From contig CAMDJM010000012.1 of assembly GCA_945900785.1 (NCBI GenBank), positions 21,610-85,609 of the forward strand: a DNA stretch of 64,000 nucleotides, given 5' to 3'. Under the pieces are notes generated by a model, which saw nothing but the letters and a program-made list of their open reading frames with translations, was not told where the DNA came from and did not search any database. Source of the DNA: Akkermansia muciniphila (lineage in GTDB: Bacteria > Verrucomicrobiota > Verrucomicrobiia > Verrucomicrobiales > V1-33). Below are positions 7,235 through 58,310 of this stretch, one piece after another (positions within the stretch are counted from its first letter, which is position 1; each line of letters opens with the position of its first letter). A program made the translations under genes and the position numbers.

Positions 7235-7595
7235 AGAACAGGATACACCGATGAAAAAAGGAGATGAGACGTAAGCAGGCCATCCCCCCGGCGCAACGTT
7301 GAATGTTGACGCCGGGAAGCATCGGTTAGCAGGCCGTGCGGCGGTTCCGGGGCCTCCGCCCGGCTCACTGCGGGCTGGGCACCATCCGGATTTATGGCAC
7401 GCCTCTTTTGGATAAACTCTTATCCTTGAAGATAAAAAAATGCGACTTCAGAGAAGATCCCGGAAACCCAAAAAGTTTTTTGAGATTTTAATTCTCTTAC
7501 ATTCAACAAGTTACAGCAACTCAAATTTTCCTGGATCAAGCTTGGCACGCTCAAAGCAATATCATCCTCCATCATCCAACAAAAGGAGGAACCCC
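7235..7595. other. Intergenic region between divergent carboxypeptidase and TROVE genes
   Basis: No convincing gene is seen in these 361 bases. The part near 7390-7560 is notably AT-rich and is expected to hold the promoter of the TROVE gene. A reading frame in phase with the TROVE gene begins at 7440, but its product is low complexity and has no ribosome-binding site. A small inverted repeat (GATAA/TTATC) lies near 7410-7423. No regulator site can be named with confidence. Confidence 0.5.
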
Positions 7596-9146
7596 ATGAA
7601 CCCGAACTTATTCAACACCCGGAACGCCCGACTGCCCGCCGCCGACACCCGCAACGAAGCGGGAGGAAAGGCTTACGCTTTCGGACCGCAACTGACCTTG
7701 GCGCAATATGCCGCGACTGGTTGCCTGAGCGGGACGTTTTATGCCAGTGCGGAAATGCAGTTGGAAACGCTCCTGAAAATGGCTTCGGACTGCGACGCAG
7801 CGTTCGTGGCCAAAACCGCCGTCTTTGCCCGCCAGCGCGGTTTCATGAAGGACGTGCCGGCGTTGCTGGCGGCCCATCTGGCGCAGCGCGATCCAGTGCT
7901 GCTCCGCCAGGTGTTCGACCGCGTGATCGACGACGGAAAAATGCTGCGCAACTTTGTCCAGATCATCCGCAGCGGCGTCACGGGCCGGAAGTCCCTCGGC
8001 ACCGCGCCGAAGCGCTTGGTCCAGCGTTGGCTGACGGCCCGCACGGACGACCAGCTGCTCCGCGCCAGTGTCGGCCAGAAGCCTTCGCTGGGGGACGTGG
8101 TGAAGATGGTCCACCCGAAGCCGAACTCGTCCCAGCGGCAGGCCCTCTACGGATGGCTGTGCAGCCGGAAGGTGGAAGCCCAACTGCTGCCGCCCCTCGT
8201 GCAGGCCTTCGAGGCCTTCAAGGAATCCCGCGAAGCCAACGCCCTGCCTGACGTGCCGTTCCAGATGCTCACCGCGCTGGATCTCGGCCCGGCGCACTGG
8301 GCGCAGATCGCCCGCACCGCGTCCTGGCAGACCACCCGCATGAACCTGAACACCTTTGCCCGTCATGGCGTCTTTGCCGATCCCGGCCTGACCCGTCTGA
8401 TCGTGGAACGGCTCCGCGATCCCGGCAAGGTGCGGAAGGCCCGCGTGTTTCCCTACCAACTGCTGGCCGCCTACGTCAATGTCTCGGCGGAGGTGCCAGG
8501 GGAAGTGAAGGAAGCGCTCCAGGATGCCATGGAAACGGCCACGCAAAACGTGCCATCCATCGCAGGCAAGGTGTGGATTCTTCCTGACGTGTCCGGTTCC
8601 ATGCAGTCGCCGGTCACCGGCTACCGCCCGGGATCCACCACAGCGGTGCGCTGCCTTGATGTCGCGTCCCTGGTCACGGCCTGCTTCCTGCGGAACAACC
8701 GCGGGGCGGAAGTCCTGCCCTTCACGGACCGGCTCGTCCCGGTGGTGCTGAACCCCCGTGACACCGTTCTGACCAACGCGGCCAAACTGGCGGCTTTGCC
8801 TCCCGGGGCGACCGATTGCTCGGTCCCACTGGCGGAGATGAACCGCCGGAAGGCCCAGGGTGATTTGGTCGTCATCGTCTCGGACAACGAATCCTGGGCT
8901 GGCCGCCAAACCGGTCCCGCCACCGCGCTGATGGTCCAGTGGGAAGCCTTCCGGAAGCGGAATCCCGGCGCGAAGCTGGTCTGTCTCGACATCCAGCCCA
9001 ACGCCAGCAGCCAGGCTCCGGAACGGGCGGACGTGATGAACATCGGCGGGTTTTCGGACTCCGTTTTTGAAATCATCGCCGCCTTCGCCGACGGCACCCT
9101 GCGGGCTGACCATTGGGTCGGCGTCATCGGAAAAACAGTGCTTTGA
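7596..9146 (+). CDS. rsr: Ro60-type TROVE domain RNA-binding protein
   Basis: This 516-residue Ro60 orthologue (Rsr in bacteria) is a ring of HEAT-like helices that binds the ends of misfolded RNAs and Y RNAs. Residues about 30-325 are the helical TROVE ring. The rest is a von Willebrand A-like domain whose metal site (MIDAS) is complete: DVSGSM at 331-336, GATDC around 404-408 and SDNES at 429-433. The start at 7596 is chosen because a strong GGAGG lies just upstream; the frame is open to 7440. It is followed by four Y RNA genes and rtcB, the arrangement expected for a Ro RNA-quality-control and RNA-repair locus. In other bacteria Ro-Y complexes work with exonucleases such as PNPase; no such gene is in this window. 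Confidence 0.93.
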   Translation: MNPNLFNTRNARLPAADTRNEAGGKAYAFGPQLTLAQYAATGCLSGTFYASAEMQLETLLKMASDCDAAFVAKTAVFARQRGFMKDVPALLAAHLAQRDPVLLRQVFDRVIDDGKMLRNFVQIIRSGVTGRKSLGTAPKRLVQRWLTARTDDQLLRASVGQKPSLGDVVKMVHPKPNSSQRQALYGWLCSRKVEAQLLPPLVQAFEAFKESREANALPDVPFQMLTALDLGPAHWAQIARTASWQTTRMNLNTFARHGVFADPGLTRLIVERLRDPGKVRKARVFPYQLLAAYVNVSAEVPGEVKEALQDAMETATQNVPSIAGKVWILPDVSGSMQSPVTGYRPGSTTAVRCLDVASLVTACFLRNNRGAEVLPFTDRLVPVVLNPRDTVLTNAAKLAALPPGATDCSVPLAEMNRRKAQGDLVVIVSDNESWAGRQTGPATALMVQWEAFRKRNPGAKLVCLDIQPNASSQAPERADVMNIGGFSDSVFEIIAAFADGTLRADHWVGVIGKTVL

Positions 9147-43732: not shown

Positions 43733-46700
43733 ATGAAAACTGTGAAATTTACCTCCAGAAATCCTGATGGACCTTGCGCCTCCGGTGGGTTTAGTTTTAT
43801 GGAAGTGCTGGTTGTTATTGCCGGTCTGGCGTTGGTGGTGGCGGTGGGTTTGATCTGTTCTCAACGCGAATAATGCGGCCAGGGAAACAAAATTGAGGCA
43901 GGATGTGGCCTCGTTGAACCGGGCAGTCCAGACCTATCATATGAGTGGAGGTAATCTTTCCACCGCCACCAATGCCACGGAGGTGATCGCCAAGCTCAAA
44001 ACGACCATGCGAAACAGTGAACGCTCTACCATGGCCGGCTTGCGAAGCAGCATGATTGATGCCCGCCTGACCGGCCTGTCGGCCACCAAAGGGGAGCTGC
44101 GTGCGGTATGGGATGGGAACAGGCAGTCGTTTGTGGTCGCGGCTGATGGCGCAGGCTTCAAGGAATTTGTGTTGGACCGCAGCGCGGTTCCCCCGGTGCC
44201 GGTGGAAGAATCCCGCGCCACCGTCATGAAGTTGAGCAATACTGATAAATGGATTTGGGGATACAACCAAGCGGACCCCAGTCTGGATCGGATGCAGTCG
44301 TCACCCTCCTTCGGGACCGGGCCTCTCCTTCCTACTGCAGGGGACGTATTGACCCTGTCTTTGGCCCCACCAATTTTCAGCGTTGCGGGAGGGCAATACA
44401 ATCTCTTTTGGTTTCCAAAGGAACTGGCGCTTTCCCCCGGCACCAGCAACCCTCCTCTCTCGTCGGAGATCTTCTATAATATCAATGGTGCCGCCTGGCA
44501 AAAATACAGTGGCCCTTTCTCCATTACCGACCCGGGTATATCGGTAAATGCCAAGTCCGTTTCTCTGGATGTCGATGCCTACACGGACAGTGTGGACGCC
44601 ACTGCCCTCTACTCCTCCACCCCAGTGACTTTGGATCCCGCCACCACCCTGCAAACGACCTACACTTACGCCGGGTTGGGGGGTCCCCTGGCTCCAGGCT
44701 CCCTTGCACCCACCCTCGCTCCTTCGGCCCGCCTTATCCTGAACAATGCCAATGAAATCCCCGGCTCCTACCAGCGGGATACCGCGTTTCAGTCCTTCTG
44801 GACGTGGGATGGCACCAACCCATCCGTTACCGGAGCAGGGCGGATCTCAGGCATCAATTCCTTTTCCAATGGCTATCCTGGGGACCCGCTTAATTTGACG
44901 ATCGCCAGCTTCGCGGGCAGCAGCTCCTTAACCCTTAAATACGTTATGCTGTCCAAAAACAGCAACTTGGTGTCCTCCGCCGTTAAAACAGCCACCGCAG
45001 TCATCACCACCACCCGCTTGTTGCCCCCGCTGGTTTCCCCAGGCAAGACCAGTCTTACTGGTGCGGAGAAAGTCACGCTGGCCCTTGATGTTTCCGCATC
45101 CAGCACTCCGGCCAATGCCCGGATTTTTTACCGGACGGATGGCGTGGATCCCGGCGATGTGAATGGCGAGCCGGCCGCAGGTGCCATCCTTTACACGGCC
45201 CCCATCCAGCTGGAATCGATCGGCCGGCCCACCGTGAATCTGGTGGCCCGGGTTTACTCTCCTACGGCCTACAAGTCATGGTTTACCCCCAGCCAGCCCC
45301 TCAGTCAAAGTTATTATCTGCCCTACGCGGGAGGAGAAGTCTACGCGGTGACCGGCGGTGACCGCCTCATTTACAGCCTGAGCCCTTCCACCGGAGCCAA
45401 CATCGTGTTGAGCGACACTGCGGGCTATAACATCAGCTCCATCGCCCTTGATGTGGACAAAGCCCGCATCTACTATGTGGAGAACGGCAGCAGCACTTCC
45501 GGCTGGAGGCTGGGCTACTATGATTACATTACCACCCAACACACCACGTTGGGCAATCTGAAAGCCAACTGGTCCTACTCCCCTGCGGCCACCCCCGGCA
45601 ACCTCGCTTTTTTCAAGGGAAGCCTGTATTTTGTGCCCCCATCCACCGATGATCTGGTCCGTATCACCCTCAACGCGGCCGCCACCGCCATCACGGCGGT
45701 CAGCAAAGCCGCCGATCTGCGCGCTAACAACAATTGGACAACAGTAGGCGATCTCGCGGTGACTGAGACCGGGCTGATGTTCTTTGTGGATTCCGGGAAA
45801 AAATATCATCGCTTCAATCTGAACACCATGAGCGGCTATCTGGAAGTGGGCAGCACCGCCGATTTCCTGGTGGGTCTCACCTTTTACCAGGGCCGGCTGT
45901 TTGGCACTAAAAGTGGTGCCACCAACATCCAAAATCTCAATCCCGGATCCGGCAAGCTCATTTCCAGTGTGAACGCCGCCAACTCCAAAATGTTCACCGA
46001 CCTCGCGGCCCCGACCCCGGCTGCTCCCGTGACGGACGTCCAATCGCTCTGGGCCGTGGATGATCAGTCCGATGGAGCCCATTTGATCGAATTCCGCAAC
46101 AACTACCGCAACCCGCTGACCTCCACCGCCGTGGACTACGGCGTGCTTCTGGCGGATGGCACTGCGATTCCCCGGAATGACCGCTTCGGGATCCGGGCTC
46201 TCGCAATTTCCAACAGTGGAACCGCCTATTTCGTTTATAACAAAAAAATCAGAGTCGGAGGAAAGGACCAGTTCCGTCCCCTCATGAGCCTCAATCTGGC
46301 CCAATTGAAGCTCGGAGACAATCTCTCCGTAGTCTCCATGGGCGATCTGTCGCCTGCTCTTCAACCCGTCGCCGGAACCATTGATCCTGACGACGTTATC
46401 ACTGGCCTCACCCTTTCCCCGGCGGGGACGCTTTACGGCGTGCTGAAGGAGGGTGCCTCTTCCGGTGCCGGCAGCGCGGATTATCTTTTCAAATGCACCC
46501 AGCCCGCCACTGCCATGACCGGTTCCACCATTGCGGTGGCTGGCCTCGGACGCACCATCTCCGCCTCCGGGCTCTCCTCGGACAGTGAGGACCTCGCCTT
46601 CACCACCGATGGCCGCCTCCAGGTGTTCGATGGGTATGACAATGAGCTGCTCGAAATCAGCCCCGAAAACGGCACTGTCCTCTCCACGCGGAGCAGTGGA

Positions 46701-49040
46701 GCCGGGAACTATCATGGTATCGCGGTGGACCCCGGAGACGGCCGGACCGTCGTGTCGGATGTCGGTGGCATCGGCAGCACCCCGGACAGCTTCCTGATGC
46801 TTAACGGTGGAACCAACAACACGGAATACTTCCTTAATTACAACACGCAGTGGGGCTACAGTAAAATCGAAGCCATTTCCTTTTTCCAGGCCCCCTTTGT
46901 CCTGCTCGGCAACCAACTGGACCTCTTCGCTGCCGACGGCACCCGGACGATCTATGGGCTTAACCTGTCCAGCGGCCAGACCGCCCCGGTCACAGATGCC
47001 CCCTGGCCGGTGCGGAACCTCGCCTTCGACCTCGTGAAGCGCGAAGTTTTCTACCTGCGGGGCGACAGTTCTTCCTTCACCCTCGGATCCTTCAACCGCG
47101 ATACCTATGGCCACCAGGTTTATGGAGACCTCAAAACGGCCGGCTTTGAGTATGTCCCTGCCCAATTGCCCGACAACCTGATGTATTACAGTGGGTCACT
47201 CTGGTATGTAGAGCCCGATACCGATAATCTTGTCAGAATCCAGACCGGAACCAATACCATCACCTCCCAGAAAAAAGTTTACAGTTTCACCGGCGGCACG
47301 ATGCCCTTTGATCTGATAGGGGATCTGGCGATGACGCCGGACGGCTGGGTCTATTTCTCAGCCGTGCGGACGGACGGGCAACGTTTTTGCCGCTTCAACA
47401 TCAATACAATGTCCAGGTTCGAAGTCCTCTCCGGTCCCACCCCTCCGCCGGTCCTCAATGCAGACGGCGGGCCATACCGCGGAACTTGGTTTGACGCCCT
47501 GGCCCTCAGCCCTACCAACGCCGTAAGCACTCCTACCCTTTACTGTGCTTATCCCACCATCCCTTCGCCGCTGCATACGGTGAATCCTCTCAACGGCGCA
47601 ACTACGTTCGCCCGGAACGTGACTTCCCGGCTGGGATTGATTGATTTCTCCGACAACCACCCCGGTGACATCGGCAGTGGCCCTGTGGTCACGCTCCGTC
47701 CCTTGCTGCAATTAAACAATCTGCAGTCCTCCTATACCTATGCCGAGGTTGGCGGACCCTTCCTTACCGGGCTCAATCTCCCCCCTCCTGCCGATGCGGG
47801 CCCCACGGCCGTGCTGAACAACCCTTACGAATTCCCGCTCAACCAGCAAAACAGTAACTACTTCCAGGTGCGTTGGAGCTACGATGGGGTAAGTCCCTTG
47901 TCCAGTCCGGCTGCTTCCGTGACCGGAGCTTTCAGTGGGGGCTTCCCCGGCCAGCAGCTCGGGATCGGCTACAGTCTCTGGGGGACCCGCTCAACCCTGC
48001 CCCTCAAGGTTATCGCCAAATCGCTCAGAACCGATGTGATGGGGAACTCGCCGGTCCTGGCCCCTGTCATCACGGCAGAACGCATGGTGCTGGATGCTCC
48101 CCTGATCACGGAGGTGACGGCGGTGAAAACCGTGCGTCAGATTGAGATCCGCCCCAATGTGGACGGTGGAGCCATCCCTCCCGGCACCCGGATTTACTAC
48201 ACCACAAACGGGAGTGATCCCGGCGTGGTGCGGGATGCCAATGGACTGGACTCCGCTGCTACCGGCACCCTCTATACCACGACCATTCCCGTGCCCTCCA
48301 CGCTTCCCAACGGCCAAACGCACTTCGTTATCACGGCGCGGCTCTACCCTCCTGGCAATCTCGGCCAATGGTTTGCCTCCAGTGAAGAAGCCTATCTGGA
48401 CACCCCGATGGGCCTGGTGGCAGGTCACATGGATGTGGACACCTCCTCCTTGCTTTACCCCTTCCGCCGGGGCAGCACGGATGCCCACATCCACGAGTAT
48501 GACAAAAAATACAATGTCGTCGGTGCCTCCTTTTTCAGCTTCGCAGGCAGTAGTCTGCGCAACCTGCCCCAGAATGTCCCCGCCGGGACCCGCTTCAAAA
48601 TCATTGTGGCGAATGCGAGCCTCTCCCCGGGAGGCCGCCTCGTCATCAACAAAACTTATAACCCCGCAGACAATGCCACTTGGAACAATGTGACCACCTA
48701 TGATGAAATCTTGCCCGCCAACCTGCCTATTTACAGCCTCGAAGGCCTGCCCGGCACCGCTAAACTCACCCAATTCGGACTGTATTTTGATACCAATGCC
48801 ATTGGCTCCGGCACCCTCATCTCCACGGAGACCTCATATGTCAAAAGCAATACTCCCGGCCTCCTGGGCGAGTGGCGCAATGGAGCGCTAACGATTCAGG
48901 TCGTCAAAGATCCGGATGGTTCGGACGCGTTCGCCGTCAACACCGCCTGGAGTAATGGCGGTGTCCAAGGGGTCGCCACCTCGGGGTTGCTCTGGGAAAC
49001 TACCTTCTTCAGCCACGGCAAAACCGCTTACGGCAAGTGA
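43733..49040 (+). CDS. Giant prepilin-type protein with chitobiase-like repeats (frameshift at about 43856)
   Basis: The ATG at 43733 opens a type IV prepilin leader: GGFSFMEVLVVIAGLALVVAVGLI, with cleavage after Gly19 and Glu at +5. This frame stops soon after. Deleting one base near 43856 continues it as VLNANNAARETKLRQDV into a 1,700-residue frame ending at 49040. The merged protein of about 1,768 residues has two tandem modules, each a beta-propeller (about 45340-46000 and 46900-47450) flanked by a chitobiase/hexosaminidase C-terminal-like repeat (YRTDGVDPGD near codon 465, YTTNGSDPG near codon 1488). It is probably surface-exposed. The frameshift may be real or a sequence error. Confidence 0.7.
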
Positions 49041-49409
49041 ACGATGGTTCCCGTCCCATACCGCATCGGCTCCGGCATTTTGACACGCGAAGCGCGGGGG
49101 TGGATCGGCGATCCGCGCTCCGCGCGGGCATCGCGAGGTTTTGCTGGATGAGTCCGGGCCGTGGGCTGAAGGGGGCACCAGACGGTGGGGATCTGATATG
49201 ATACTCCATGTTTGCCGATGGCCTTCAGAAGCGCCGGCACGCCCGGGGCGGCTACGGCAGCTTGGCCTCAGGCTTGCCTGCTACGATGCCTGGGGCAGTT
49301 GCTGAAAGCGCGGCGTCGCCGCAGGCTGAAGTCCCGGCCCCGGTGAGTGCTGCCAGCAAACTTTGCCGGGGCGGGAAGCTGAGGCGCAGAAAGGCAATGA
49401 GGCCAAGCC
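49041..49409. other. Gap between giant gene and kinase gene
   Basis: No gene is supported in this 369-base stretch. Short open frames on both strands overlap each other and lack recognisable motifs. GC-rich palindromic words (GCGCTCCGCGC near 49108-49118, GATCGGCGATC near 49101) are present, but without a T run they are not called a terminator. Confidence 0.4.
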
Positions 49410-49440
49410 AAAAAAGCCCGGCCTTGCTTGGCAAGGCCGC
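49410..49440 (-). terminator. Terminator after the kinase gene
   Basis: On the minus strand a perfect hairpin CGGCCTTGC/GCAAGGCCG with a 3-base loop (49419-49439) is followed, after CCGGGC, by a run of six T residues (49410-49415 read on the minus strand). It lies just after the kinase stop and would end the export operon. Confidence 0.75.
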
Positions 49441-49462
49441 GTCCCATGGCGGTGCTCCACCA

Positions 49463-50689
49463 TCAGCCGGCGGCCGCCAGCTTTTCAGGCCTGCTCCCGC
49501 TTGCGGAGCGTTTCCCAAGGGCCGGCAGGGCCGGGGTGGGATACCTTAACCACGCGCCATCAACTTCGGAACGGCGGGCCGGATCCAGATGGCAAAGCGT
49601 GCCGATGATTTGAGCAAAGCGCTGCACCTCCACCGCTGGAAGCTGAGGGGCTTCGGCGTGGAGGCGGGAGGCGCAGGATTCAGGCACCGTTCGCCCTCCC
49701 GCCTGGCGGAAGCGGCCCTCCGGGGTGAAAAAGGAAGTGCGGAAAGTGCCCGACAGGATCAATGCCGGAGGCAGGGGGCCGAACATCCGGTCGATCTGCA
49801 GCAGATGCTCATGATTCAGCGCCAGATCCCGCAGGTCGTCCGCGCCTTTTTCTTTTTGCCAGACCCGTTGCGGAAGCGGTCCGCCAGCTGCGGCCTGCTT
49901 CAGGCTTTCCTGCTCACAGCAGTGTTTCCATAAAGTGTCATAACTGCCATCCAGGGTCACCTCCGGGTGAACGGTCAGGGCCGCCCAGACGGTGCCATAC
50001 CGGCCCTGTCCCAATTCTTTCTGAAGCTGGTATTTCCCCGCGATCAAATCCCCCGCCAGATATTGCTCGGCTGCTTCCTCCGCTTCGTCCGCCGCCACGG
50101 ATTCATGCAGGTCGTCCTCCGGCACATCATCCCCGGTAAAGTAAAATTCCTGGTATTTTCCGGCCGCGAGGCTGCGCGGATCAAACAGCAAACCGCCCGT
50201 GAGCATCTCAAAAACAGTGCAGCCCAGTGACCAATAGTCGATCGCCGGAGTGGGCGGTGCGCCCAACAAAACTTCCGGCGGGGTAAACTCCCGGGTGCAG
50301 AGCGAATCTCCCGCTGACAGTTTGCTGGAAGCACTGCCCAAATCGGCCAGTTTGGCTTTTCCGGTGCGGCGGTCGTAGAGAATGTTGTCCGGTTTAACAT
50401 CGGTATGGGCGAAACCCGCCGCATGAAGATGCCGCAGGGCCGCCAGCATTTGGCGCGTGACGGAGAGGGTCTGACGGACCGTCAGGGGACGCTGGCTGAT
50501 TTCGTCATCCAGGGAACGCCCGTGGATTCCGTATGCGAGGCAGAAGTGGCCATCATGGAAAAAGGCTTCCTTCAATTCAATGATCGACCCGCAGGCCCCG
50601 TGCCGCCCCACCGCCTTGACGATCCCAATTTCATTGATGGCGGAACGGGGGGAACGCCGCCGTTGGATTTTAAGAGCGATCTGATTCAT
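49463..50689 (-). CDS. SRPK-like serine/threonine kinase with permuted glycine-rich loop
   Basis: This 408-residue eukaryotic-type kinase begins within the N-lobe: the catalytic lysine is in QIALKIQ (Lys7), the alpha-C Glu is Glu20, the catalytic loop is HTDVKPDN (95-102), the metal Asp is in DLGSAS (116-121), and EVLLG and DYWSLGCTVFEMLTGG are SRPK-like. The glycine-rich loop that should precede Lys7 is absent. It occurs instead at residues 224-236 (KELGQGRYGTVWA) inside an insert between LLFDP and the SRPK-like NHEHLLQID. The ATG follows the HlyD stop by 4 bases, leaving no room for a normal start. SR-protein kinases phosphorylate Ser in basic-Ser repeats. A peptide with KS repeats is encoded upstream, so it may be the substrate (inference). 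Confidence 0.85.
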   Translation of the reverse strand: MNQIALKIQRRRSPRSAINEIGIVKAVGRHGACGSIIELKEAFFHDGHFCLAYGIHGRSLDDEISQRPLTVRQTLSVTRQMLAALRHLHAAGFAHTDVKPDNILYDRRTGKAKLADLGSASSKLSAGDSLCTREFTPPEVLLGAPPTPAIDYWSLGCTVFEMLTGGLLFDPRSLAAGKYQEFYFTGDDVPEDDLHESVAADEAEEAAEQYLAGDLIAGKYQLQKELGQGRYGTVWAALTVHPEVTLDGSYDTLWKHCCEQESLKQAAAGGPLPQRVWQKEKGADDLRDLALNHEHLLQIDRMFGPLPPALILSGTFRTSFFTPEGRFRQAGGRTVPESCASRLHAEAPQLPAVEVQRFAQIIGTLCHLDPARRSEVDGAWLRYPTPALPALGKRSASGSRPEKLAAAG

Positions 50690-50693
50690 CGGG

Positions 50694-52037
50694 TTATCTG
50701 GTCTGGGCGAAGGCTTTCCGGATTTCATTGAAAACACGTCCGATGAGCCGGACATCCTCGGTGACGATGCCCGCCTCGCCCGTCATCTGCTGCTTGAAGG
50801 GCACCGGCCTGCCGTAGCTGCTGGTCAGCGGGTAAGCGATTTCCACCAGCACGATGTGGGAACTGTCCCGGGCTACCATGGAAATGGATTCCACGCGGCC
50901 GTCCACCAATCCAAATTCCTTGTAGGGGAAATCCTGCAGCTTGATGCGGACGGGCTGGCCTTTGATGATTTTTCCGGCCCCGCTCTGATTTACCGACATG
51001 CGGCCGATCAGGCGGGTGGTCTCCGGCACAATCAGGAATACTACCTGACCCGCCGTGACGTATTGCTGGTCGCTCCAAAAATCATGGAAGGCCACCACCC
51101 CATCCGAGGAGGCACGCAGGAGATAGTCCGCCTGCCACAGATCGATCTGCGCCCGGAGGAGGTTCAACGCATCCTGCAATTTATAACGGGCGAGGCGGAG
51201 GCTTTCCTCACGCTGGTGGCGCTGGTCGGCCATTTCCTTCTCAAGGGTGGCCAGAGCGATTTTTTCCTCCGCCAGATTTTTCCGGGCTGTTTCGCGGACG
51301 CGTTCGCCCCCGATGAACTGCTGTTCCGCCTCCTGCACTTGCGAGCTGCTGATGGAGTCCCGCTGATGGAGCGCTTTCATCCGGGCGAACTTTTCGGTTT
51401 CGAGGGCACGTTCCCGGTCGGCCATGAGGGACTGTTTTTCCATGCCGGTGATCTGGGCCTGCTTTTGCACGGTCTGGCCTTCCAGAATCCGGGCGGTCTT
51501 CGCCGCATAGTTGTCGTCCCTCACCGTTTGATAGGAACTCCAGGCACTGGCAAAGGCCGCGTAACCGGGCTGGATCTGACCCAGGCCCTCCGCCGGTTTG
51601 AAGTCCTGCGCCGGCAGGTTTTGCCCGGAGCCGAGCAGAGCCCCCAGGGGAGCGAGGCGTTCTGTCAGCGCCAGCACGGCCGCCGCATCTGCGGGACTGC
51701 TGATAATCGCAAGGATATCGCCGCTTTTTACAGCCTGCATTTCCTTCACCTTCAGACTGGCGAGGTGTCCGCTTTGCCGGGCCACCACGTCCACGACCGG
51801 GGAACTGCCCATCAGAGTGATTTTCCCACTGATCATATCGGGATAGCGGATAAACCAACCGAGAAGCAGCAGCACCATGACCCCGCCCATGAGGAGGCTG
51901 GTGCCGGAGCGCAGCAGCCATGACGGCGGACGGCTCATGATGTCCTTCACCTCATCGCTCCACTCCGCCGGTGCGGGCTGGGGGATGACGAGAGGTGCAG
52001 CGGGAGGGTGGGCGCGCTCAGCGGTAGGCGACGGCAT
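50694..52037 (-). CDS. HlyD-family secretion adaptor
   Basis: This 447-residue periplasmic adaptor bridges an ABC transporter to an outer-membrane channel. One membrane helix (about 48-66) is followed by a lipoyl/barrel part (VVARQSGHLASLKV), a long coiled coil (about 150-260) and the second lipoyl and barrel half (RASSDGVVAFHDFWSDQQYVTAGQ). The ATG at 52037 lies 20 bases inside the end of the ABC transporter gene, showing translational coupling. The kinase starts 4 bases after its stop. Together these genes form a type I secretion system. Confidence 0.88.
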   Translation of the reverse strand: MPSPTAERAHPPAAPLVIPQPAPAEWSDEVKDIMSRPPSWLLRSGTSLLMGGVMVLLLLGWFIRYPDMISGKITLMGSSPVVDVVARQSGHLASLKVKEMQAVKSGDILAIISSPADAAAVLALTERLAPLGALLGSGQNLPAQDFKPAEGLGQIQPGYAAFASAWSSYQTVRDDNYAAKTARILEGQTVQKQAQITGMEKQSLMADRERALETEKFARMKALHQRDSISSSQVQEAEQQFIGGERVRETARKNLAEEKIALATLEKEMADQRHQREESLRLARYKLQDALNLLRAQIDLWQADYLLRASSDGVVAFHDFWSDQQYVTAGQVVFLIVPETTRLIGRMSVNQSGAGKIIKGQPVRIKLQDFPYKEFGLVDGRVESISMVARDSSHIVLVEIAYPLTSSYGRPVPFKQQMTGEAGIVTEDVRLIGRVFNEIRKAFAQTR

Positions 52038-54255
52038 GGTCCTGTTCCAGTTCGAGTTGATTACGGACGAGATTGAAATAAGCCCCGCCCCTTGCGACGA
52101 GGTCCTCGTGGGCGCCAATCTCCACGATCTTTCCCCCATGCAGGACCACGATTTGATCTGCATCCCGCACCGTGCTGAGACGGTGGGCAATCACCACTAC
52201 CGTGCGCCCCTGAATGTAGTTCCGCAGGTGGCCCAGAATGGTGCTTTCGTTATTGGCATCAAGGGCGCTGGTGGCCTCATCAAGGAAAAGAAATTCGGGA
52301 TTCCGGTAGAGCGCCCGGGCGATCAGGATGCGCTGTTTTTGGCCGCCGGAAAGTCCCTGACCTTCGGGACCGATCCGGGTCTCCGTCCCAAGAGGCAGGG
52401 TGGCAACATAGTCCCCCAGGTTGGCCAGCCAAATCGCCCCCTCCAATCTGATCGGGTCGATCCGGCTCCGGCCTGGAGCAATATTGCGGGCGAGGGATGC
52501 GGAAAAAATGACTCCATCCTGCATGACCGAACCACAGCGGGTGCGCCATGTATCCATATCAAACCCTTCGAGCGGGAGGTGGCCGATGTAGATCCCCCCG
52601 GCAGTGGGTTTGTAAAGACCGAGCATCAATTTCAGCAAAGTGGTTTTTCCGCTGCCGCTGGATCCAACGATGGCGGTGACTTTGCCCTCCGGAATGGTCA
52701 GGTTGATGCCGGATAAAACATCGGTTTGTCCGGCTCCGGGATACCGGAAGGAAAGCTGGTGCAGGGTCAGGATGCGCGATGCGGGATAGGGCACATGACC
52801 CGGCGCGTTTGACAGTTCCTCGCCATCGTCCTTCTGGCCGTAAATCTCCTGCATGCGCTCCAGGCTGAGCCGGGCGTCCTGACCACTGTGGAGGAAATCG
52901 ATCAGGCGCGTAATGGGCGAATTCAGCTGACCGACGATGTATGTCGTGGCCAGCATCATTCCAAGCGTCATCTCACCGCCGATGACGGCGCTCGCGGCGA
53001 TAAAGTTGATGAAGATATTGCGCAGGTTGTTGATAAAGAAGGTGCCGATGCGCTGGAACTGCCGCAGTGAAAGGCTGCTGCGCTCCAGCCGGTAATTGCG
53101 CACGCCCAGTTCCTCCCAGTCCCAGCGTTTATCGCGCTGGATTCCCTGGGTCTTGATCTCCTGCATGGAGCTGACAATTTCGTAGAGGGTATCCCGCTCC
53201 TTGGCTTCGAGAGTGAAGCGCTTGTAGTCCAGCATCCGGCGCTTTTTCAAAAAGAGGCAGAGCCACCCGACCGACAGCGCCGTCATGATCAAAAACACGG
53301 CAAGGATTTTCAGGCTGTAGAGCGCCAGCACGCCCCCAAAAACCACGAAGGAGAGCAGGGAAAAAACAATATCCAATGAGGACGACATCAGAAAGCTCTT
53401 GACGCGGCGGTGGTCGCTGACGCGCTGCATGATATCACCCGCCGTGCGGCTGTCGAAAAATGGCAGGGGCAGGCGCAGCAGCTTGTGCAGAAAATCCGAG
53501 ATCATCGAAATGCTGATGCGCGATCCGATGTGGAGCAGCAGCCAGCTCCGGATCATATCCGCAGCCGTCTGGCTGACAGACAGCACGAGCTGGGCCGCCA
53601 GCAGCACGTAGATGAACTGGAGATCCAGATTGCCAATACCGTAATCCACCACCGCCTGGGAGAGAAAAGGCAGGATCAGTTCCAGCATCAGCCCTACCAG
53701 CATCCCCAGGATCAGTTGCACCAGCAGCTTGCGGTGGGGCTTCAAATAGGAATAGAAAAAGAGCAGGCCGCGCCGGGTGTCCTCATTTTCCACCTGGCCG
53801 GACGAATTCCGCTGGTGAAGCTCGGGGGTTGCTTCGAGGAGAAGGAAAATACCGGGAGTCGCGGCTGTCTCCGGCCCCCCGGGAATCGAAGTGCCGGCGA
53901 TGAATTCCTCATGGGTATAATCCACCAGACCGTGGGCGGGGTCCGCCACCCTGACTTTGCGCCGCGTCACTTCGTAAACCACGACAAAGTGGTCATGCTG
54001 CCAGTGGGCGATACAAGGCAAGGGGGCTTCCTCCCGGAACCGCCCGAAGGGCAAGCGCACCGCGAGGCAGCGGAACCCTATCTTTTCAGCGGCCTCTGAA
54101 ATGCCCAGAATGGAAACACCGCCTTTCCCGATTTCGCAGAGTTCCCGGATCCAGGACTGGGAAAACTGCCGGTCATGATACGCGCAAATCATCCGCAGGC
54201 AGGCGGGACCACAGTCCATTCCGTCCAACTGGGCAAAAAAGGGGAAGGTGCTCAT
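52018..54255 (-). CDS. Peptidase-containing ABC transporter (C39, double-glycine leader processing)
   Basis: This 745-residue ABC exporter has an N-terminal C39 cysteine peptidase (catalytic Cys15 in MDCGPACL, His in HFVVVYEV, Asp in DPAHG), a membrane domain with about six helices, and an ATPase with GSSGSGKTT Walker A, LSGGQKQR signature and FLFLDEATSALD. C39 transporters cut leaders after a double glycine and export the core. A candidate substrate with an ITGG leader lies upstream. The ATG at 54255 starts 5 bases after the channel gene stop. It is the heart of this secretion locus. Confidence 0.92.
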   Translation of the reverse strand: MSTFPFFAQLDGMDCGPACLRMICAYHDRQFSQSWIRELCEIGKGGVSILGISEAAEKIGFRCLAVRLPFGRFREEAPLPCIAHWQHDHFVVVYEVTRRKVRVADPAHGLVDYTHEEFIAGTSIPGGPETAATPGIFLLLEATPELHQRNSSGQVENEDTRRGLLFFYSYLKPHRKLLVQLILGMLVGLMLELILPFLSQAVVDYGIGNLDLQFIYVLLAAQLVLSVSQTAADMIRSWLLLHIGSRISISMISDFLHKLLRLPLPFFDSRTAGDIMQRVSDHRRVKSFLMSSSLDIVFSLLSFVVFGGVLALYSLKILAVFLIMTALSVGWLCLFLKKRRMLDYKRFTLEAKERDTLYEIVSSMQEIKTQGIQRDKRWDWEELGVRNYRLERSSLSLRQFQRIGTFFINNLRNIFINFIAASAVIGGEMTLGMMLATTYIVGQLNSPITRLIDFLHSGQDARLSLERMQEIYGQKDDGEELSNAPGHVPYPASRILTLHQLSFRYPGAGQTDVLSGINLTIPEGKVTAIVGSSGSGKTTLLKLMLGLYKPTAGGIYIGHLPLEGFDMDTWRTRCGSVMQDGVIFSASLARNIAPGRSRIDPIRLEGAIWLANLGDYVATLPLGTETRIGPEGQGLSGGQKQRILIARALYRNPEFLFLDEATSALDANNESTILGHLRNYIQGRTVVVIAHRLSTVRDADQIVVLHGGKIVEIGAHEDLVARGGAYFNLVRNQLELEQDHAVAYR

Positions 54256-54260
54256 GCCGG

Positions 54261-55849
54261 TCAGAGGACAAGGCCGTGACGCCCGATGATGGAGCCATCC
54301 AGTTGGGACAAGGCGGACCAACCGGCGAACAGACTGAGGCGCGCCTGCTGCTCCCGCACCTCCGCCGCAGAGAGTTCCTCCCCGGATTCACGGAGATCCC
54401 GCACCGGGACCAAGCCGTCCTTGTGCCGCCGCAGTTGCTCATCCCATTTTAAACGGTTCACTTGCGCCGTCCGGGTGGCGGCCCCCAATGTGGCGCGTCC
54501 AGCCTCAATCCCACGGCACAACTCGAAGATCCGCTGTTTCAGGCGCTGGGTCGCTTCTTCCTGCGCGGTCACACTCTTATCCAACCCGGCCTGGGCGGAT
54601 GCCAGTTGCGCCTTTCCGGCACGCAAGCCCCAGGGAATGTTGAACCGGAGCAGGGCCACTCCTTCCCAGTCACTGCCCCCTTTGGTGGGATGATCCGCCG
54701 TGGCAGCACTGACTTCAGCATCCAGTCTGGGCAGGACCTGATTTTTAGCCCGCAACAGCTCGATCTCCCGGCGCTGCACTTCATTGATCAGCAAAATCGC
54801 CGTGGGGGCGGTTTGCATGGCTCTCGCAAAGGATTTGGCCCCGTCGGGAGTTTCCCCAGGCAGGGCCTTATCCGATAAATCCGTGAAAGATACCTCAGGC
54901 AGTTTTTCCGCGAGGGGAGCCCCCAAAACCAACCACAGTTCTCCGATGCGGTCCCCCGCAGATTTCCTGGCTTCCACCAGCCGCTCCTGCGCTGCGGAAA
55001 GGGCCACTTCCGCCTCCAATTCGTCAATTTGGGAAGCGGCTCCAGCGGCCCGGCGGACCTTGACGTCTGCCATCAACTGCTGCGCCCGCGCCAGGCTGGT
55101 GTGCTGGTTTTTTTCCACCAGGGCCGCCACCGCCGCCGCGTAATAGGCCGTTTCAGCGGACCGCAGGGTCTCGAGTAAATCCGCTGTCACCGTGGCGCTG
55201 GCCTGCTCATTCAAAAGTTCGCTGACCCGGATGGCCGCCAGATTGGCCTCCATGCCCCATCCCCGGAGCAGCGGTTGCCGCACGTTGATCGCTCCCCCTG
55301 CAGGATTGGACTGTAAATAATCATCCCGGAAGTCTCCGGTTCTGTTGGCAATATTGCCCCCTTCCAGCTCCACTTCTGTTCCGGTGGCGAAACGTTTCGT
55401 CACGCCTCCGGAAAACTCCGTATTGCCGGAAGCCCCGCCCGCCGGTCGGTCCGCCCGCACCGAGCCGAAAAGCTGCGGGTCAAAATCGGATTTTTGGACC
55501 TCCACCGCAGCCCGCGCCTGCCGGGCCGCTTCCAGCGATTGCCGGATAGAGAAGTTATGTTCAATCGCAAAATCGATACAGGTCTGCAGATTCAGCGCGG
55601 ATCCTCCGCTGGCGAGGACTCTTGGGCCCTTCGGGACCGCTCCCGGACTTATTGGGCGTTCCTGTGATACAGCGGAAGAAACAGGGATAGCAGGAGATTT
55701 TACTTCAGGAGTTGTCCGCGCCGGGGCAGGGGAGCCCCCTGCACTTCACGGGAAGACCAGTGCCCCCGGGGCAGGGCACATCCGGAAACAAAAACCAAAA
55801 AAAGCCCCAGCCCCAATAATGATGCGTAGGCTTTAAACTTAGGAAACAT
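54261..55849 (-). CDS. TolC-like outer membrane channel lipoprotein (frameshift in a G run)
   Basis: The ATG at 55849 opens a signal peptide with VSGC lipobox (Cys24). That frame soon ends (GAPLPRRGQLLK, stop). The TolC-type frame, with CIDFAIEHNFSIRQSLEAARQ, RQPLLRG and a C-terminal TolC repeat, is open upstream but has no start codon. One more G in the five-G run (complement of 55735-55739) would join the two as a lipoprotein-anchored TolC-like channel of about 529 residues. The gene starts the export operon and ends 5 bases before the C39 transporter. The shorter frame from 55505 lacks the conserved N-terminal part. Confidence 0.75.
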
Positions 55850-55974
55850 GATTAGGATAATAATCGTGATTTCCATAATTTCAAGTCCCTTTTCGCGAAC
55901 CCACTCCAATCCGCGATTCTTTTCCATGCAAAACCCGGCGCAAGCCGTGGAAATTCTCCCTGCGGAAAACGATA

Positions 55975-56002
55975 AAGGGGAGAAGCCTAAGCTTCTCCCC
56001 TT
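55975..56002 (-). terminator. Hairpin between peptide gene and export operon
   Basis: A perfect 12-bp stem (AAGGGGAGAAGC/GCTTCTCCCCTT) with a 4-base CTAA loop lies between the peptide stop (56043) and the channel start (55849). On the minus strand it is followed by TTTATCGTTTT. It may partially stop transcription so that the peptide is made in excess over the exporters, as is common in bacteriocin loci. Confidence 0.65.
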
Positions 56003-56042
56003 CTGTTTTGTCCCAGGGATGGGAATATCCAAAGGCAGATGC

Positions 56043-56252
56043 TTACCATTTCGGAACAATGGGCTCACAAATGCTGGCCCCTGATCTGCTCTTGGTGCTC
56101 TTGGTGCTCTTGGCGGATTTGGCGGACTTGCCACACTTCGCGCTCTTTTTTTTGCTCTTTGACTTGGCTTTGCACTTGCCACCCCCGGTGATCATGGCGG
56201 GGGAGTTGATGGCGTCGGCGGCGAAGGCTTCAAGGATGCTAATTTTGTTCAT
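56043..56252 (-). CDS. Double-glycine-leader precursor peptide with Lys/Ser repeats
   Basis: This 69-residue peptide has a leader MNKISILEAFAADAINSPAM followed by ITGG (Gly23-Gly24), the site expected for C39 peptidase cleavage. The core of about 45 residues is extremely basic: 14 Lys and 1 Arg against 1 Glu, with 10 Ser and three Cys (27, 40, 62). Its middle is a Lys-Ser-x triplet repeat (KSAKSAKSTKSTKSRS). Such KS repeats resemble substrates of SR-protein-type kinases, and an SRPK-like kinase is encoded in the same cluster. The peptide is probably exported by the adjacent transporter after leader removal. It is not a close match to any family I recognise. No ribosome-binding site is obvious. 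Confidence 0.8.
   Translation of the reverse strand: MNKISILEAFAADAINSPAMITGGGKCKAKSKSKKKSAKCGKSAKSAKSTKSTKSRSGASICEPIVPKW
56086..56130 (-). repeat. Five 9-base tandem repeats coding the KSx core
   Basis: Five consecutive 9-base units (plus strand CTGCTCTTG, GTGCTCTTG, GTGCTCTTG, GCGGATTTG, GCGGACTTG) encode the KSAKSAKSTKSTKS-type triplets on the minus strand. Two adjacent units are identical, so the core can expand or contract by slippage. Confidence 0.8.
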
Positions 56253-56275
56253 AGTGTTTGGAGTAGGTTGAGTGA

Positions 56276-56304
56276 ATCACCGCAATGAGAATTATTGCAG
56301 TGAT
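56276..56304. promoter_or_regulatory. Inverted repeat upstream of the precursor peptide gene
   Basis: ATCACCGCAAT (56276-56286) and ATTGCAGTGAT (56294-56304) are reverse complements with one mismatch, spaced by 7 bases. They lie 24-52 bases upstream of the peptide ATG (56252) in an AT-rich region. The position suits an operator or the 5' end of the transcript. No regulator gene is present nearby. Confidence 0.45.
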
Positions 56305-56571
56305 GAGACACAATTACCAGAATTTAAAATGCGCGCAAGTTTTTCCAAAAAATTCGTATTTTCCATACTTTACTAATTTCCATAAGCATTCAAGGGTGCT
56401 TAAATTTTTGAGCCGCAAACCCCGCGAAGAACTGAATTCGCCACGCGTTTTCCCACCAACGGACCGACCCGCCGGTTGAATCAAGGAGGAAACAATCCTT
56501 TGGGGAGGCGGTTTCCGGTCGGTTGAAATTGGACAGGAGCTGGGCCTGTTTTATCCGGCTGATGATTATTA
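56305..56571. other. AT-rich gap between peptide gene and ABC-2 permease
   Basis: No gene is seen. The first about 100 bases next to the peptide are AT-rich, in contrast to the rest of the window, and likely include its promoter. The part near 56540-56575, after the permease stop, contains small palindromic words (CTGATGATTATTATCAG, about 56559-56575) that could end permease transcription. Confidence 0.4.
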
Positions 56572-57387
56572 TCAGGCATCGCCAAACACCCGCTTCCGCA
56601 GCAGGCGGAGATCCAGGGGAATCAATACCAGCAGCATGAGCAGGCTCAGGCCGGCGGCGGCGGGGAGGTGCCAGGTGAGTTCGCCCCGGAGGAGAAGCCA
56701 GCGAAGGCCTTCTGAGAGGTGGTGCAGCGGGTTCACCTGCACCATGGCTTCCAGCCATGGCACGGGCGGCAGGGGAAAATAGGTGCTGCTGGCAAAACCC
56801 AGTGGCAGGATGACGAGGAAAAACGGCAGTCCCATGTGATCGATACTGGGCAGCGTAGCGGTGAACAGCAGGCCCAGGGCGGAGAAAGCGAGGGACGCCA
56901 GAAATAACAAGGGAATAGCCAGAGGCAGCCATCCCCAATGCAGGGTGAGAGCCCCCGCCATGCCAAATCCAGTGAGGACCAGACAGACGAGGAGGGCGTA
57001 GCTGGTGGACAGGGTAGCGGCCCAGAGGGCTTCTCCCCAGACCACGTGTTCGAGCCGGACCTGGGTGGTAAGCTGGCCTTCCCAGGATTTTTGGTAGTGC
57101 ATCCGCATGTAGGCGGAAAACAAGGACTGGAAAAACGCGGTCATGAAGACGGTATAGGCCAGGATGCCCGGGGCGAGGTAGTTCAGATAACTGATGGGGC
57201 CCCCGCCCCATTCCAACTGGTTGATCTGACGCCCGAGACCGACGCCAAAGGCGAGGAGCATCACCAGTGGTTCACACACGGGGGGCAAAGCGGCAGTGTG
57301 CCAATTCCGCAAATGCACGCGCAGGTGCCGCAGCAGCACGGCGCGGCTTTGCCAATCAAAGGCGGGGAGATAGCTGGCGGGACTCAT
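56572..57387 (-). CDS. ABC-2 type transporter permease
   Basis: This 271-residue inner-membrane permease has about six helices and the typical C-terminal ABC-2 signature region (PLGFASSTYFPLPPVPWLEAMVQ, then NPLHHLSEGLRW). It belongs to the NodJ/DrrB-like group of exporters for drugs, polysaccharides or lipids. Its start overlaps the ATPase stop as ATGA, so the two form one transporter. The substrate is unknown. It is upstream of, but probably not part of, the peptide export cluster. Confidence 0.88.
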   Translation of the reverse strand: MSPASYLPAFDWQSRAVLLRHLRVHLRNWHTAALPPVCEPLVMLLAFGVGLGRQINQLEWGGGPISYLNYLAPGILAYTVFMTAFFQSLFSAYMRMHYQKSWEGQLTTQVRLEHVVWGEALWAATLSTSYALLVCLVLTGFGMAGALTLHWGWLPLAIPLLFLASLAFSALGLLFTATLPSIDHMGLPFFLVILPLGFASSTYFPLPPVPWLEAMVQVNPLHHLSEGLRWLLLRGELTWHLPAAAGLSLLMLLVLIPLDLRLLRKRVFGDA

Positions 57388-58310
57388 GGGGATTCGCTGC
57401 CGAGAGCGAGGAAAAGATCATCCAGGGTGGGCGGGCGGACTTCGTAGCGCAGGGTGGGAAAGGCGGCGACGAAGGCGGCCAACTGAATGGCTTCCAGGGC
57501 AATGTGCCAGTCCTCCAGCACGCGGGCCGGTTTGTTATGGTGCTGCTGGAGCCAGGGTTCGACTTCTGAAAATCCGGGTGTGTTAGCCGGAATCACAACA
57601 ATGTGATCCCCGACGACATCGCCCAGCAGGGAGCGGGTGGTGCCGGTGGCGCGGACTTTGCCGGATTGCAGCAGGATGAGGCGGTCGGAAAGCCGCTCCG
57701 CTTCATCCATGTAATGGGTGGTCAGCACCACCGCCATGCCGGCGGCGCGGAGGTTGGAGACGAGTTCCCACACACCCATGCGGGCCTGGGGATCGAGTCC
57801 GGTGGTGGGTTCATCCAGGAAGACCACCTGTGGCTGATGGACCACGGCGCGGGCGATCATGAGGCGCCGCTTGTAGCCGCCGGAGAGAGTGTCCGGTTTT
57901 TTGTCAGCATATTCCGTCAGGCCGAATTGATCCAGCAGGGCCGCGATCCGGCGGGTCAGGTCCGGCAACAGCGGCCGGTAGTAGCGGGCGGTTTGCTCCA
58001 GATTTCCCCGCACCGTGAAGTCGGTGTCGAAGGTATCGTCCTGGGTGCAAACCCCGAGGGCACGGCGCGCCGCATCCCCATCCGTAGTGAGATCATGCCC
58101 CGCGATCCGGATGGTGCCGGCATCCGGCCGGAGGAACCCGTAGCACATTTTCAGCGAGGTGGTTTTCCCCGCGCCATTGGGGCCCAGCAATCCGATGACC
58201 TCCCCGGCATGGCACATCAGATCCACGCCATCGACGACGAGTTTGCCACCAAGGGTTTTTTTCAGCCCCCGCACATCAAGCAGGGGTTGGGGGGGAGCGG
58301 AAATGGACAT
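57384..58310 (-). CDS. ABC transporter ATP-binding protein
   Basis: This 308-residue ATPase has GPNGAGKTT Walker A, the LSGGYKRRL signature and VVFLDEPTTGLD Walker B, with HYMDEAERL after it. It is the NodI/DrrA type and works with the overlapping ABC-2 permease. The ATG at 58310 is chosen; the frame is open further upstream with no family match. The C-terminal part (FSEVEPWLQQHHNK and PTLDDLFLAL) is typical of this group. Confidence 0.92.
   Translation of the reverse strand: MSISAPPQPLLDVRGLKKTLGGKLVVDGVDLMCHAGEVIGLLGPNGAGKTTSLKMCYGFLRPDAGTIRIAGHDLTTDGDAARRALGVCTQDDTFDTDFTVRGNLEQTARYYRPLLPDLTRRIAALLDQFGLTEYADKKPDTLSGGYKRRLMIARAVVHQPQVVFLDEPTTGLDPQARMGVWELVSNLRAAGMAVVLTTHYMDEAERLSDRLILLQSGKVRATGTTRSLLGDVVGDHIVVIPANTPGFSEVEPWLQQHHNKPARVLEDWHIALEAIQLAAFVAAFPTLRYEVRPPTLDDLFLALGSESP

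Follow-up and report, generated by a model that had tools for sequence, protein, structure and literature searches.

A bacterial SRPK-like kinase with a transposed glycine-rich loop, encoded beside a Lys/Ser-repeat peptide and a double-glycine exporter

What would a Ser/Thr kinase do in a bacterial gene set that otherwise encodes a small peptide and its exporter? This question is raised by a locus within a 64,000-nucleotide stretch of DNA, hereafter the window, from a draft genome of 172 contigs; the locus host is a relative of Verrucomicrobiaceae. The initial annotation had placed on one strand, in order, a peptide gene, a hairpin, a TolC-like channel, a C39 transporter, an HlyD adaptor, a kinase and a terminator, and each of these elements was found again close to or exactly where it had first been placed, all of them on the minus strand, which confirms that observation. 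The precursor peptide (56043..56252, minus strand; 69 aa) has a double glycine (GG) at residues 23-24, with the leader MNKISILEAFAADAINSPAMITGG at 56181-56252 and the Lys/Ser-rich core GKCKAKSKSKKKSAKCGKSAKSAKSTKSTKSRSGASICEPIVPKW at 56046-56180, both on the minus strand; the core has a net charge of +14 and contains 10 Ser residues. A stem-loop (~55974..56003, minus strand; minimum energy -29.2 kcal/mol for a 50-nt stretch) lies in the gap between the peptide and TolC genes, and stems that follow the peptide gene elsewhere are clean in three loci (L063, L064 and L091) and imperfect in L065. The stem-loop 3' of the peptide stop could be a terminator or attenuator, by which the peptide would be made in excess. 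An Rfam search of positions 49300-56700 gave no match at gathering scores.

The exporter genes are closely packed. The channel gene has a lipoprotein-type start (signal plus SGC; ~55700..55848, minus strand) whose frame differs from the rest of the gene, which encodes a TolC-like outer-membrane efflux channel (OEP; 54261..55505, minus strand, GTG start; PF02321, 76.1 bits, 4.1e-21); the open frame of this ORF extends further upstream, and its TIGR01844 match (41 bits) is below cut-off. Both parts of the lipoprotein TolC-like channel first described are present, but they lie in separate frames, which indicates that the gene is broken in the window. The C39-peptidase ABC transporter (52018..54255, minus strand; ORF to 54321), which likely starts at the ATG at 54255, matches Peptidase_C39 (PF03412, 109.6 bits), PF00664 and PF00005, all above cut-off, and is predicted to cleave the leader and export the peptide. 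The HlyD-type periplasmic adaptor (50694..~52037, minus strand; open from 52190) matches HlyD_3 (PF13437, 55.9 bits, 8e-15), with TIGR01843 below cut-off at 92.5 bits. With starts as chosen, the coordinates place the C39 start 5 nt past the TolC stop, an overlap of 20 nt between HlyD and the end of the C39 gene, and the kinase ATG 4 nt past the HlyD stop, in agreement with the tight packing or overlap claimed for the last three genes; a terminator of the Rho-independent type (~49410..49439, minus strand; GC stem and T run) lies 3' of the kinase gene. The Pfam domains above cut-off bear out the proposed C39/HlyD/TolC set, which together with the GG leader makes up a double-glycine export system. 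NHLP peptide export was considered and rejected (TIGR03796, 411.9 bits against a curated cut-off of 853.3), and no immunity gene was recognised on reading the listed ORFs. The export part alone is of a known kind, sharing with other C39/HlyD/TolC systems the GG motif, present in 89 of 89 peptide relatives, and the C39, HlyD and OEP domains. What differs from the usual GG peptides of such systems is the Lys/Ser-repeat core and the dedicated kinase gene; the novelty lies in the kinase and in its being paired with such a peptide.

We examined the core across the 89 peptide relatives in databases, in which the leader is conserved and the core variable. At least five basic-Ser dipeptides occur in 83 of these peptides and fewer in six; the outliers P0193 and P0208 have two and none, respectively, and the core of P0208 is out of frame. 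The Ser count is at least half of the Lys plus Arg count in 76 of the 89. Across 94 cores, 586 [KR]S dipeptides were observed against 285 +/- 12 in shuffles, 746 of 887 Ser residues adjoin Lys or Arg, and only 26 of 4097 residues are acidic. Because of this excess over shuffled cores, and because the gene set occurs in four other genera, we conclude that the Lys/Arg-Ser core is not due to chance, and the GG-leader precursor with a Lys-Ser repeat core proposed by the initial annotation stands. The cores also hold Cys residues, three in 42 and five in 25 of the 94. A conserved leader, a variable core and a kinase encoded close by in five of five loci are RiPP traits, which suggests a RiPP class with dense Ser phosphorylation as the predicted modification.

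The kinase gene (49463..~50689, minus strand; open from 50755) encodes 408 aa from the ATG of MNQIALKI and matches Pkinase (PF00069) at 112.7 bits and 2.6e-32. A database search in which 7997 candidates were scored yielded at least 117 family members among the 120 matches listed of 131; members score at least 228 bits, the next match (142 bits) is a fish kinase, and P0118-P0120 were left out of the family. Against solved structures, the kinase profile matched Sky1 best (208 bits), followed by SRPK2 (193), SRPK1 (192.6), CLK3 (165) and DYRK2 (157); the A2 profile alignments inspected were those to the best two PDB sequences. Sky1 was again first in a single-sequence search (82 bits), and SRPK chains head the fold list. 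The kinase shares with SRPKs the HTDxKPxN, DLG and TREYxxPEVLLG motifs, which together with the best solved match in both searches supports its kinship with the SRPK family. Among rows with letters, the VAIK Lys is kept in 116 of 116, a Glu aligned with the alphaC Glu in 117 of 117, and the catalytic Asp, the Asp of DLG and the Glu of PPE/APE each in 121 of 121. AF2 models of the window kinase (pLDDT 92.6, pTM 0.90) and of a 32%-identical member (pLDDT 87.5, pTM 0.87) predict a complete kinase fold. SRPKs have a long spacer between the catalytic loop and DLG, whereas only 14 residues separate N124 from D138 in the window kinase. An acidic residue at the IIELLG position, which we take to be part of the SRPK1 docking groove, is not kept, Sky1 reading IIELLG and the profile iaallG. 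A defence kinase was also considered and rejected, since the MAD6 and PD-T4-6 matches are confined to the kinase core and the neighbours are an exporter; NF047741 (MAD6) scores 69.4 bits against a curated cut-off of 460, and the PADLOC mad6 match of 125 bits covers residues 7-173 only.

Gene context covers five kinase members from five genera, most of the 117 being on metagenome contigs: the window, L063 (genome G009), L064 (G053), L065 (G083) and L091 (G551). A GG K/R-S peptide, C39 and HlyD lie near the kinase in all five, and TolC in four (broken in the window); no TolC was present among the ORFs listed in the 14 kb of L064. Separate kinase and peptide searches of a class draw matched the same two of 384 genomes, with the two draws taken as the same genomes from their equal size and listing order. 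The co-occurrence of peptide, kinase and C39 transporter proposed as a check on the initial annotation was thus found. Among 141 relatives, every genome gave some kinase match at E<=0.001, and four gave one at E<=1e-59, the level taken for members, with the next at 1.4e-16. Peptide matches at E<=1 occurred in 106 of these genomes and at E<=1e-3 in only two (the window's own and G009); the G053 (0.069) and G083 (0.18) peptides were accepted because they have the leader and lie beside the kinase, and the remaining weak matches were left out of the count. Exporter relatives at E<=1e-120 were found in seven of the 141 genomes (seven candidates scored per genome), of which four have the kinase and a K/S core and three lack the kinase. 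Basic-Ser repeats are absent from the GG peptides of G032 and G038, and reading G056 as far as the contig end revealed no peptide. Exporters without the kinase pair with GG peptides of another kind in two of three relatives, which suggests that the kinase tracks the core and not the pump. This pattern bears on a reading in which an active kinase targets the transporter, adaptor or a regulator to time the pump, and the peptide is exported unmodified. Control of transport by kinases is commonplace, and the HlyD and kinase genes adjoin in four of five loci. However, the kinase gene of L064 precedes the peptide gene, apart from HlyD, and the closest relatives of solved structure, Sky1 and the SRPKs, act on basic-Ser repeats; with the exporter-only relatives also against it, we consider regulation of the pump unlikely.

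The SRPK-like assignment of the initial annotation is upheld by the Sky1 match, but a rearrangement of the chain had gone unnoticed. The window kinase begins at the VAIK strand, and its Gly loop lies about 210 residues past the VAIK Lys, with none before. The beta1/glycine-rich loop/beta2 segment, residues 217-240, AGKYQLQKELGQGRYGTVWAAL... (49970..50041, minus strand), is recognised by its profile match to Sky1 and by AF2 strands at 220-228 and 232-239, and relative to Sky1 it is placed between alphaF and alphaG: profile positions 3-175 align with Sky1 45-239, and 220-243 with Sky1 20-43. Matched to Sky1 by itself, the moved segment gives a weak score of 14.9 bits with the profile and 1.6 bits with the single sequence. 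The canonical SRPK order, with the Gly loop ahead of the VAIK lysine, was sought among the 117 members and found in none; the loop is C-terminal to HxDxK in 115 and was not found in two short ones, and VAIK falls within residues 2-26 in 111. The loop glycines, though transposed, are kept in 119 of 120 at both positions. The L064 kinase opens with MSEKFPEVALKI, and no loop lies upstream in frame. An assembly or gene-calling artefact might be suspected in a draft genome with one neighbouring gene broken in frame, but 115 of 117 database proteins, drawn from several sources, share the order, as do five of five loci, and none shows the reverse, which leaves an artefact with practically no chance. 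The moved segment is modelled as a beta hairpin, which, judging by homology and by the pTM and pLDDT values, would sit over the ATP site. The family thus differs from SRPKs in being bacterial, in its chain starting at the VAIK strand, in the loop segment between alphaF and alphaG, in the short gap from catalytic loop to DLG, and in its presumed target, a secreted peptide. More than 100 database proteins carry eukaryotic-type kinase motifs in this altered chain order, which would offer a natural test of how far the N-lobe can be rewired.

Ahead of the transposed loop is an acidic linker (residues 183-216; 50042..50143, minus strand) with a net charge of -12. Together with the rearranged chain, it could point to a non-catalytic role, in which the kinase fold, as a pseudokinase or chaperone, would bind the polycation by its linker and bring it to the pump. 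An acidic linker is not universal in the family, with charges from -16 to +1 and a median of -5 among 113 members, and the catalytic residues and both loop glycines, needless for a pure binder, are near-invariant in up to 121 rows, which makes an escort role improbable.

Phosphorylation could also initiate lanthionine or dehydroalanine chemistry, in which phosphoserine is eliminated and Cys adds to it. Kinase domains are at work in class III/IV lanthipeptide synthetases, the cores hold Cys, and the kinase has matches to the LanL and LanKC models, although both fall well short of cut-off (52 bits against 650 and 28.9 against 575, respectively). Those synthetases combine a lyase with a LanC-type cyclase, and neither was found with the present kinase: no lyase or cyclase domain matched the kinase itself, none was noticed among neighbouring ORFs read by eye, and LANC_like was found in none of the five genomes. 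The lanthionine route was rejected on these grounds; the initial annotation, which saw no cyclase, had likewise found a stable phosphopeptide the simpler prediction. There are moreover about nine Ser for every three to five Cys, so that most Ser would be left over, and we regard this chemistry as very unlikely.

We return to phosphorylation of the peptide itself. The gene set and its recurrence, the leader, the basic-Ser core, the SRPK kinship, the catalytic motifs and the transposed loop are established at the level of sequence, and on them we base our preferred reading, that the kinase probably phosphorylates core serines in the cytoplasm, after which the C39 transporter, with HlyD and TolC, would remove the leader and export the phosphopeptide. 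The overall interpretation of the initial annotation is supported by the recurrence, by the two of three exporter-only relatives without basic-Ser peptides and by the SRPK kinship. Each phosphate would take about two charges off a core of +13 to +14, so that about seven would neutralise it, and a polycation neutralised in this way would not bind intracellular membranes or nucleic acid. Outside, the peptide would be zwitterionic or acidic. If confirmed, phosphorylation ahead of export would be a new bacterial route to secreted peptides, and a ribosomal peptide class with predicted dense Ser phosphorylation and its own exporter encoded alongside is directly testable. That bacteria encode an SRPK relative next to Lys/Arg-Ser repeats suggests a pairing of enzyme and substrate class, shared with SRPKs if the substrate reading holds, that works outside splicing. 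In listings of open-licence PMC papers, we found no report of such an SRPK relative in bacteria, of Lys-Ser GG peptides with a kinase, or of any kinase whose glycine loop is transposed or permuted.

Parts of this arrangement have parallels. As far as the available portions of the source describe, the CotH kinase gene of Bacillus spores is clustered with genes for the Ser/Lys/Arg-repeat proteins CotB and CotG, which CotH polyphosphorylates; the repeat region of CotB is reported to carry 30 phosphoserines (PMC7821199). CotH differs in its atypical fold, distantly akin to Fam20C, and in its substrates, spore-coat proteins without a leader, and no C39 export appears in those portions of its description (PMC7821199). 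Lasso-peptide clusters encode the dedicated kinases PadeK, ThcoK, SyanK and PsmK, and PadeK phosphorylates the precursor prior to maturation; in the excerpts available, these differ in a C-terminal Ser phosphate, a catalytic His-Lys-Asp-Asp motif and the lasso scaffold (PMC9266682). Diatom silaffins are Lys/Ser-rich, zwitterionic secreted peptides, with evidence for phosphate on all Ser of silaffin-1A and a kinase that prefers basic substrates; they are likened here by features and not homology, their system being, in the sections at hand, eukaryotic, ER-routed and marked by polyamine-modified lysines (PMC4557024). By analogy, the Cys-containing phosphopeptide might serve outside as surface or matrix material like CotB/CotG and silaffins, and not as a classical bacteriocin, which is our most speculative suggestion. 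We only tentatively extend this, at somewhat less than even confidence, to a re-plumbed SRPK, its chain starting at beta3 and its Gly hairpin brought back from the C-lobe, that is dedicated to dense phosphorylation of secreted Lys-Ser peptides. Bacteria would then have their own counterparts of silaffins and CotB/CotG, in which phosphorylation renders a polycation harmless in the cytoplasm and export delivers it as a zwitterionic, Cys-linked material for the surface or for mineral binding. For the rearranged N-lobe, the nearest precedent within open-licence PMC, as far as the accessible text goes, is the WNG kinases of Toxoplasma, which are active with a reorganised N-lobe, including a TgBPK1 structure with changed N-lobe strand order (PMC6442604). 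WNG kinases lost the loop and beta1 and have a helical lid instead, as told in that text, whereas the present family retains the loop elsewhere in the chain (PMC6442604).

Wider searches added little. A phylum draw with A1 (four candidates scored per genome) matched one of 387 genomes, the window's own, and G551 stood alone among 40 genomes of its family and 213 of its order. A pattern search of viral contigs gave 45 matching stretches, none of which encoded a relative. A contig scan gave 22 loci, three strong (apparently G009, G053 and G083) and 19 weaker. The lists of 117 kinases and 89 peptides have five longest-contig values in common, which is a hint of linkage on metagenome contigs and not proof.

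The cluster lies on the minus strand of the window and opens with the gene for a precursor peptide of 69 residues (56043-56252), which is followed by a strong stem-loop at about 56003-55974. Next come a TolC-like gene (54261-55848) and genes for a C39-peptidase ABC transporter (52018-54255), for an HlyD adaptor (50694 to about 52037) and, last, for a Ser/Thr kinase (49463 to about 50689); a terminator-like stem with a T run lies 3' of the kinase gene and closes the cluster. This same-strand order, proposed in the initial annotation, is borne out by the open reading frames, the stem-loops and the C39, ABC membrane, ABC ATPase, HlyD_3, OEP and Pkinase domains, which all passed curated Pfam cut-offs. 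The proposed lipoprotein TolC-like channel held in part: the lipoprotein start (about 55848-55700) and the OEP domain are present, but the channel part lies in a different frame, which may reflect a sequencing error or a genuine break. An ABC-2 permease and ABC ATPase pair (56575-58307, minus strand) adjoins the cluster upstream.

The leader of the window peptide terminates in GG and is followed by the core GKCKAKSKSKKKSAKCGKSAKSAKSTKSTKSRSGASICEPIVPKW. Using a profile built from five precursors (E<=0.001, with only the 7983 best-sharing candidates scored), we found 89 related proteins, all of which contain the GG motif. Their leaders are conserved, of the SILxxFAxDAINAPAxVTGG or SIxKFAxAGITGLxxVTGG type, and their cores are variable. 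At least five KS, RS, SK or SR dipeptides occur in 83 of the 89; relative P0193 carries two, and P0208, owing to an out-of-frame core, lacks them altogether. Core statistics were taken over 94 cores, namely the 89 relatives and the five precursors, with some sequences shared between the sets. These cores comprise 28.9% Lys and 21.6% Ser, include 26 acidic residues among 4097, and have a median net charge of +13. Ser touches Lys or Arg in 746 of 887 cases, and [KR]S occurs 586 times compared with 285 +/- 12 in shuffles, which together with the window core upholds the annotated Lys-Ser repeat. Ser residues spaced 2 or 3 apart are about twice as frequent as expected, directly adjacent Ser are depleted, and 67 of the 94 cores contain three or five Cys. 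P0127, a near-identical allele of the window peptide, has one TKS unit fewer, which indicates that core repeat number differs between close relatives.

Searching 141 related genomes with the kinase, we counted matches at E<=1e-59 as members and obtained four, from its own genome, G009, G053 and G083 (the next match was at 1.4e-16); on all four contigs, a GG K/R-S peptide, C39 and HlyD lie near the kinase. A class-wide search, run with a profile built from a second group of the kinases, brought in G551, from another family (f109) of the same class, which has the window's order of peptide, TolC, C39, HlyD and kinase. The G053 locus (L064) is ordered kinase, peptide, C39, HlyD, with TolC absent among its listed ORFs, and its core holds a plain SKSKSKSKSRSRSGSR. 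The predicted co-occurrence of peptide and SRPK-like kinase near C39 was therefore found in 5/5 loci whose context was read, most family members being known from contigs without readable context, and homologous clusters do not consistently lack either partner. In a class draw of 384 genomes, separate kinase and peptide searches matched the same two genomes, its own and G551. The stem-loop 3' of the peptide gene is clean in four of the five loci and may hold the peptide in excess of pump and kinase.

The C39 transporter was detected at E<=1e-120 in seven of the 141 relatives (seven candidates scored per genome), four of which are the kinase genomes. Among the relatives with the exporter and without the kinase, G032 encodes GG peptides with ordinary cores (MSIEAFADEAIDKSDKVIGGSARQYYKDNYKEC...) and G038 two Tyr/Ser/Gly-rich GG peptides with few basic residues; in G056, the contig ends 0.8 kb upstream of TolC, and no peptide turned up within that stretch. 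Thus, within these seven exporter genomes, a small number, the kinase follows basic-Ser cores rather than the exporter itself, and Ser without basic residues seems not to suffice. At locus L102, two GG-leader peptides with barely basic Tyr/Ser/Gly-rich cores (7233-7544 and 7589-7909) lie beside C39/HlyD without the kinase and are perhaps another peptide class using the same export route. At L101, two alike GG-leader peptides (IEAFADEAIDxSxKVIGG; 647-829 and 4229-4414) with non-repeat cores flank a large ORF, with a C39/HlyD pair in the vicinity.

A kinase profile from 93 family members, searched against PDB, matched Sky1 first (208 bits, 1.5e-60), followed by SRPK2 (193), SRPK1 (192.6), CLK3 (165) and DYRK2 (157), and the window kinase alone also matched Sky1 first (82 bits), as the annotated SRPK kinship predicts. 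The family has at least 117 members at >=228 bits among the matches listed, followed by a fish kinase at 142 bits; other bacterial kinases in the loci reach at most 99.8 bits with this profile, except a two-kinase protein (145 in total), a rough comparison since scoring runs differ. SRPKs have a long spacer between the catalytic loop and DLG. Judged by sequence, the window kinase resembles SRPKs, also in its proposed substrate logic, but differs in chain order and in this spacer, and for these reasons we call it SRPK-like rather than an SRPK. The PADLOC mad6 defence kinase model matches its residues 7-173 (window 49463-50689, minus strand) with 125 bits, and the bacterial relatives of the SRPK/CMGC group may also include MAD6.

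The profile aligned to Sky1 in three blocks of changed order: 220-243 with Sky1 20-43 (the Gly loop), 3-175 with 45-239, and 294-385 with 248-339. The first two blocks adjoin in Sky1, whereas the bacterial kinase begins at the VAIK strand; its Gly loop sits between alphaF (LFDP) and alphaG, approximately 210 residues further along. VAIK lies within residues 2-26 in 111 of 117 members, and the loop motif follows HxDxK in 115 and precedes it in none, with no loop detected in two short proteins. Across 121 rows (117 members and four locus rows, some identical), Lys (116/116), Glu (117/117), HxD Asp and DLG Asp (each 121/121) and both loop glycines (119/120 each) are near-invariant. By itself, the moved block gives low scores against Sky1, 14.9 bits with the profile and 1.6 with the single sequence. 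An acidic linker that precedes this block could grip a cationic substrate; the linker's charge is -12 in the window kinase and, over 113 members, spans -16 to +1 with a median of -5.

With the gene set, its recurrence, the leader and core, the kinase motifs and the loop transposition established at the sequence level, we propose that the kinase phosphorylates core Ser ahead of export, C39 would cut behind GG, and HlyD and TolC would complete the route. The kinase is taken as cytoplasmic because its chain starts at the VAIK strand, leaving no space for a signal peptide. Across the 89 peptides, the median K+R is 14, so approximately seven phosphates would neutralise a core; median Ser is 9, and Ser would suffice in 76/89, which fits core phosphorylation. 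As described for CotB/CotG (PMC7821199) and silaffins (PMC4557024), polyphosphorylated Lys-Ser repeats can act as surface or mineral-forming material.

The export part is of a known kind; judged against open-licence PMC papers, mostly as listed in searches, what is new is the kinase together with the way it is paired with the peptide. A lanthipeptide synthetase, already disfavoured for want of a cyclase, is made unlikely by the lack of a LanC match in the five genomes. The lasso-peptide kinases described in PMC9266682 are the nearest precedent for a kinase dedicated to a peptide, but, in that account, modify a C-terminal Ser and have a His-Lys-Asp-Asp motif. WNG kinases, as described in PMC6442604, have a reorganised N-lobe and have lost the Gly loop, which the window family has instead moved.

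A very large protein lies near the cluster in three of the five kinase loci (window 43893-49040, plus strand; L063:305-5614, in G009; L064:10743-12809) and was absent among the ORFs listed for L091 (G551) and L065 (G083). The window copy (1715 aa) matches Fn3_assoc and CHB_HEX_C_1, and the L063 and L064 copies have a prepilin-type start inside; the protein is possibly a surface fibre tied to the peptide.
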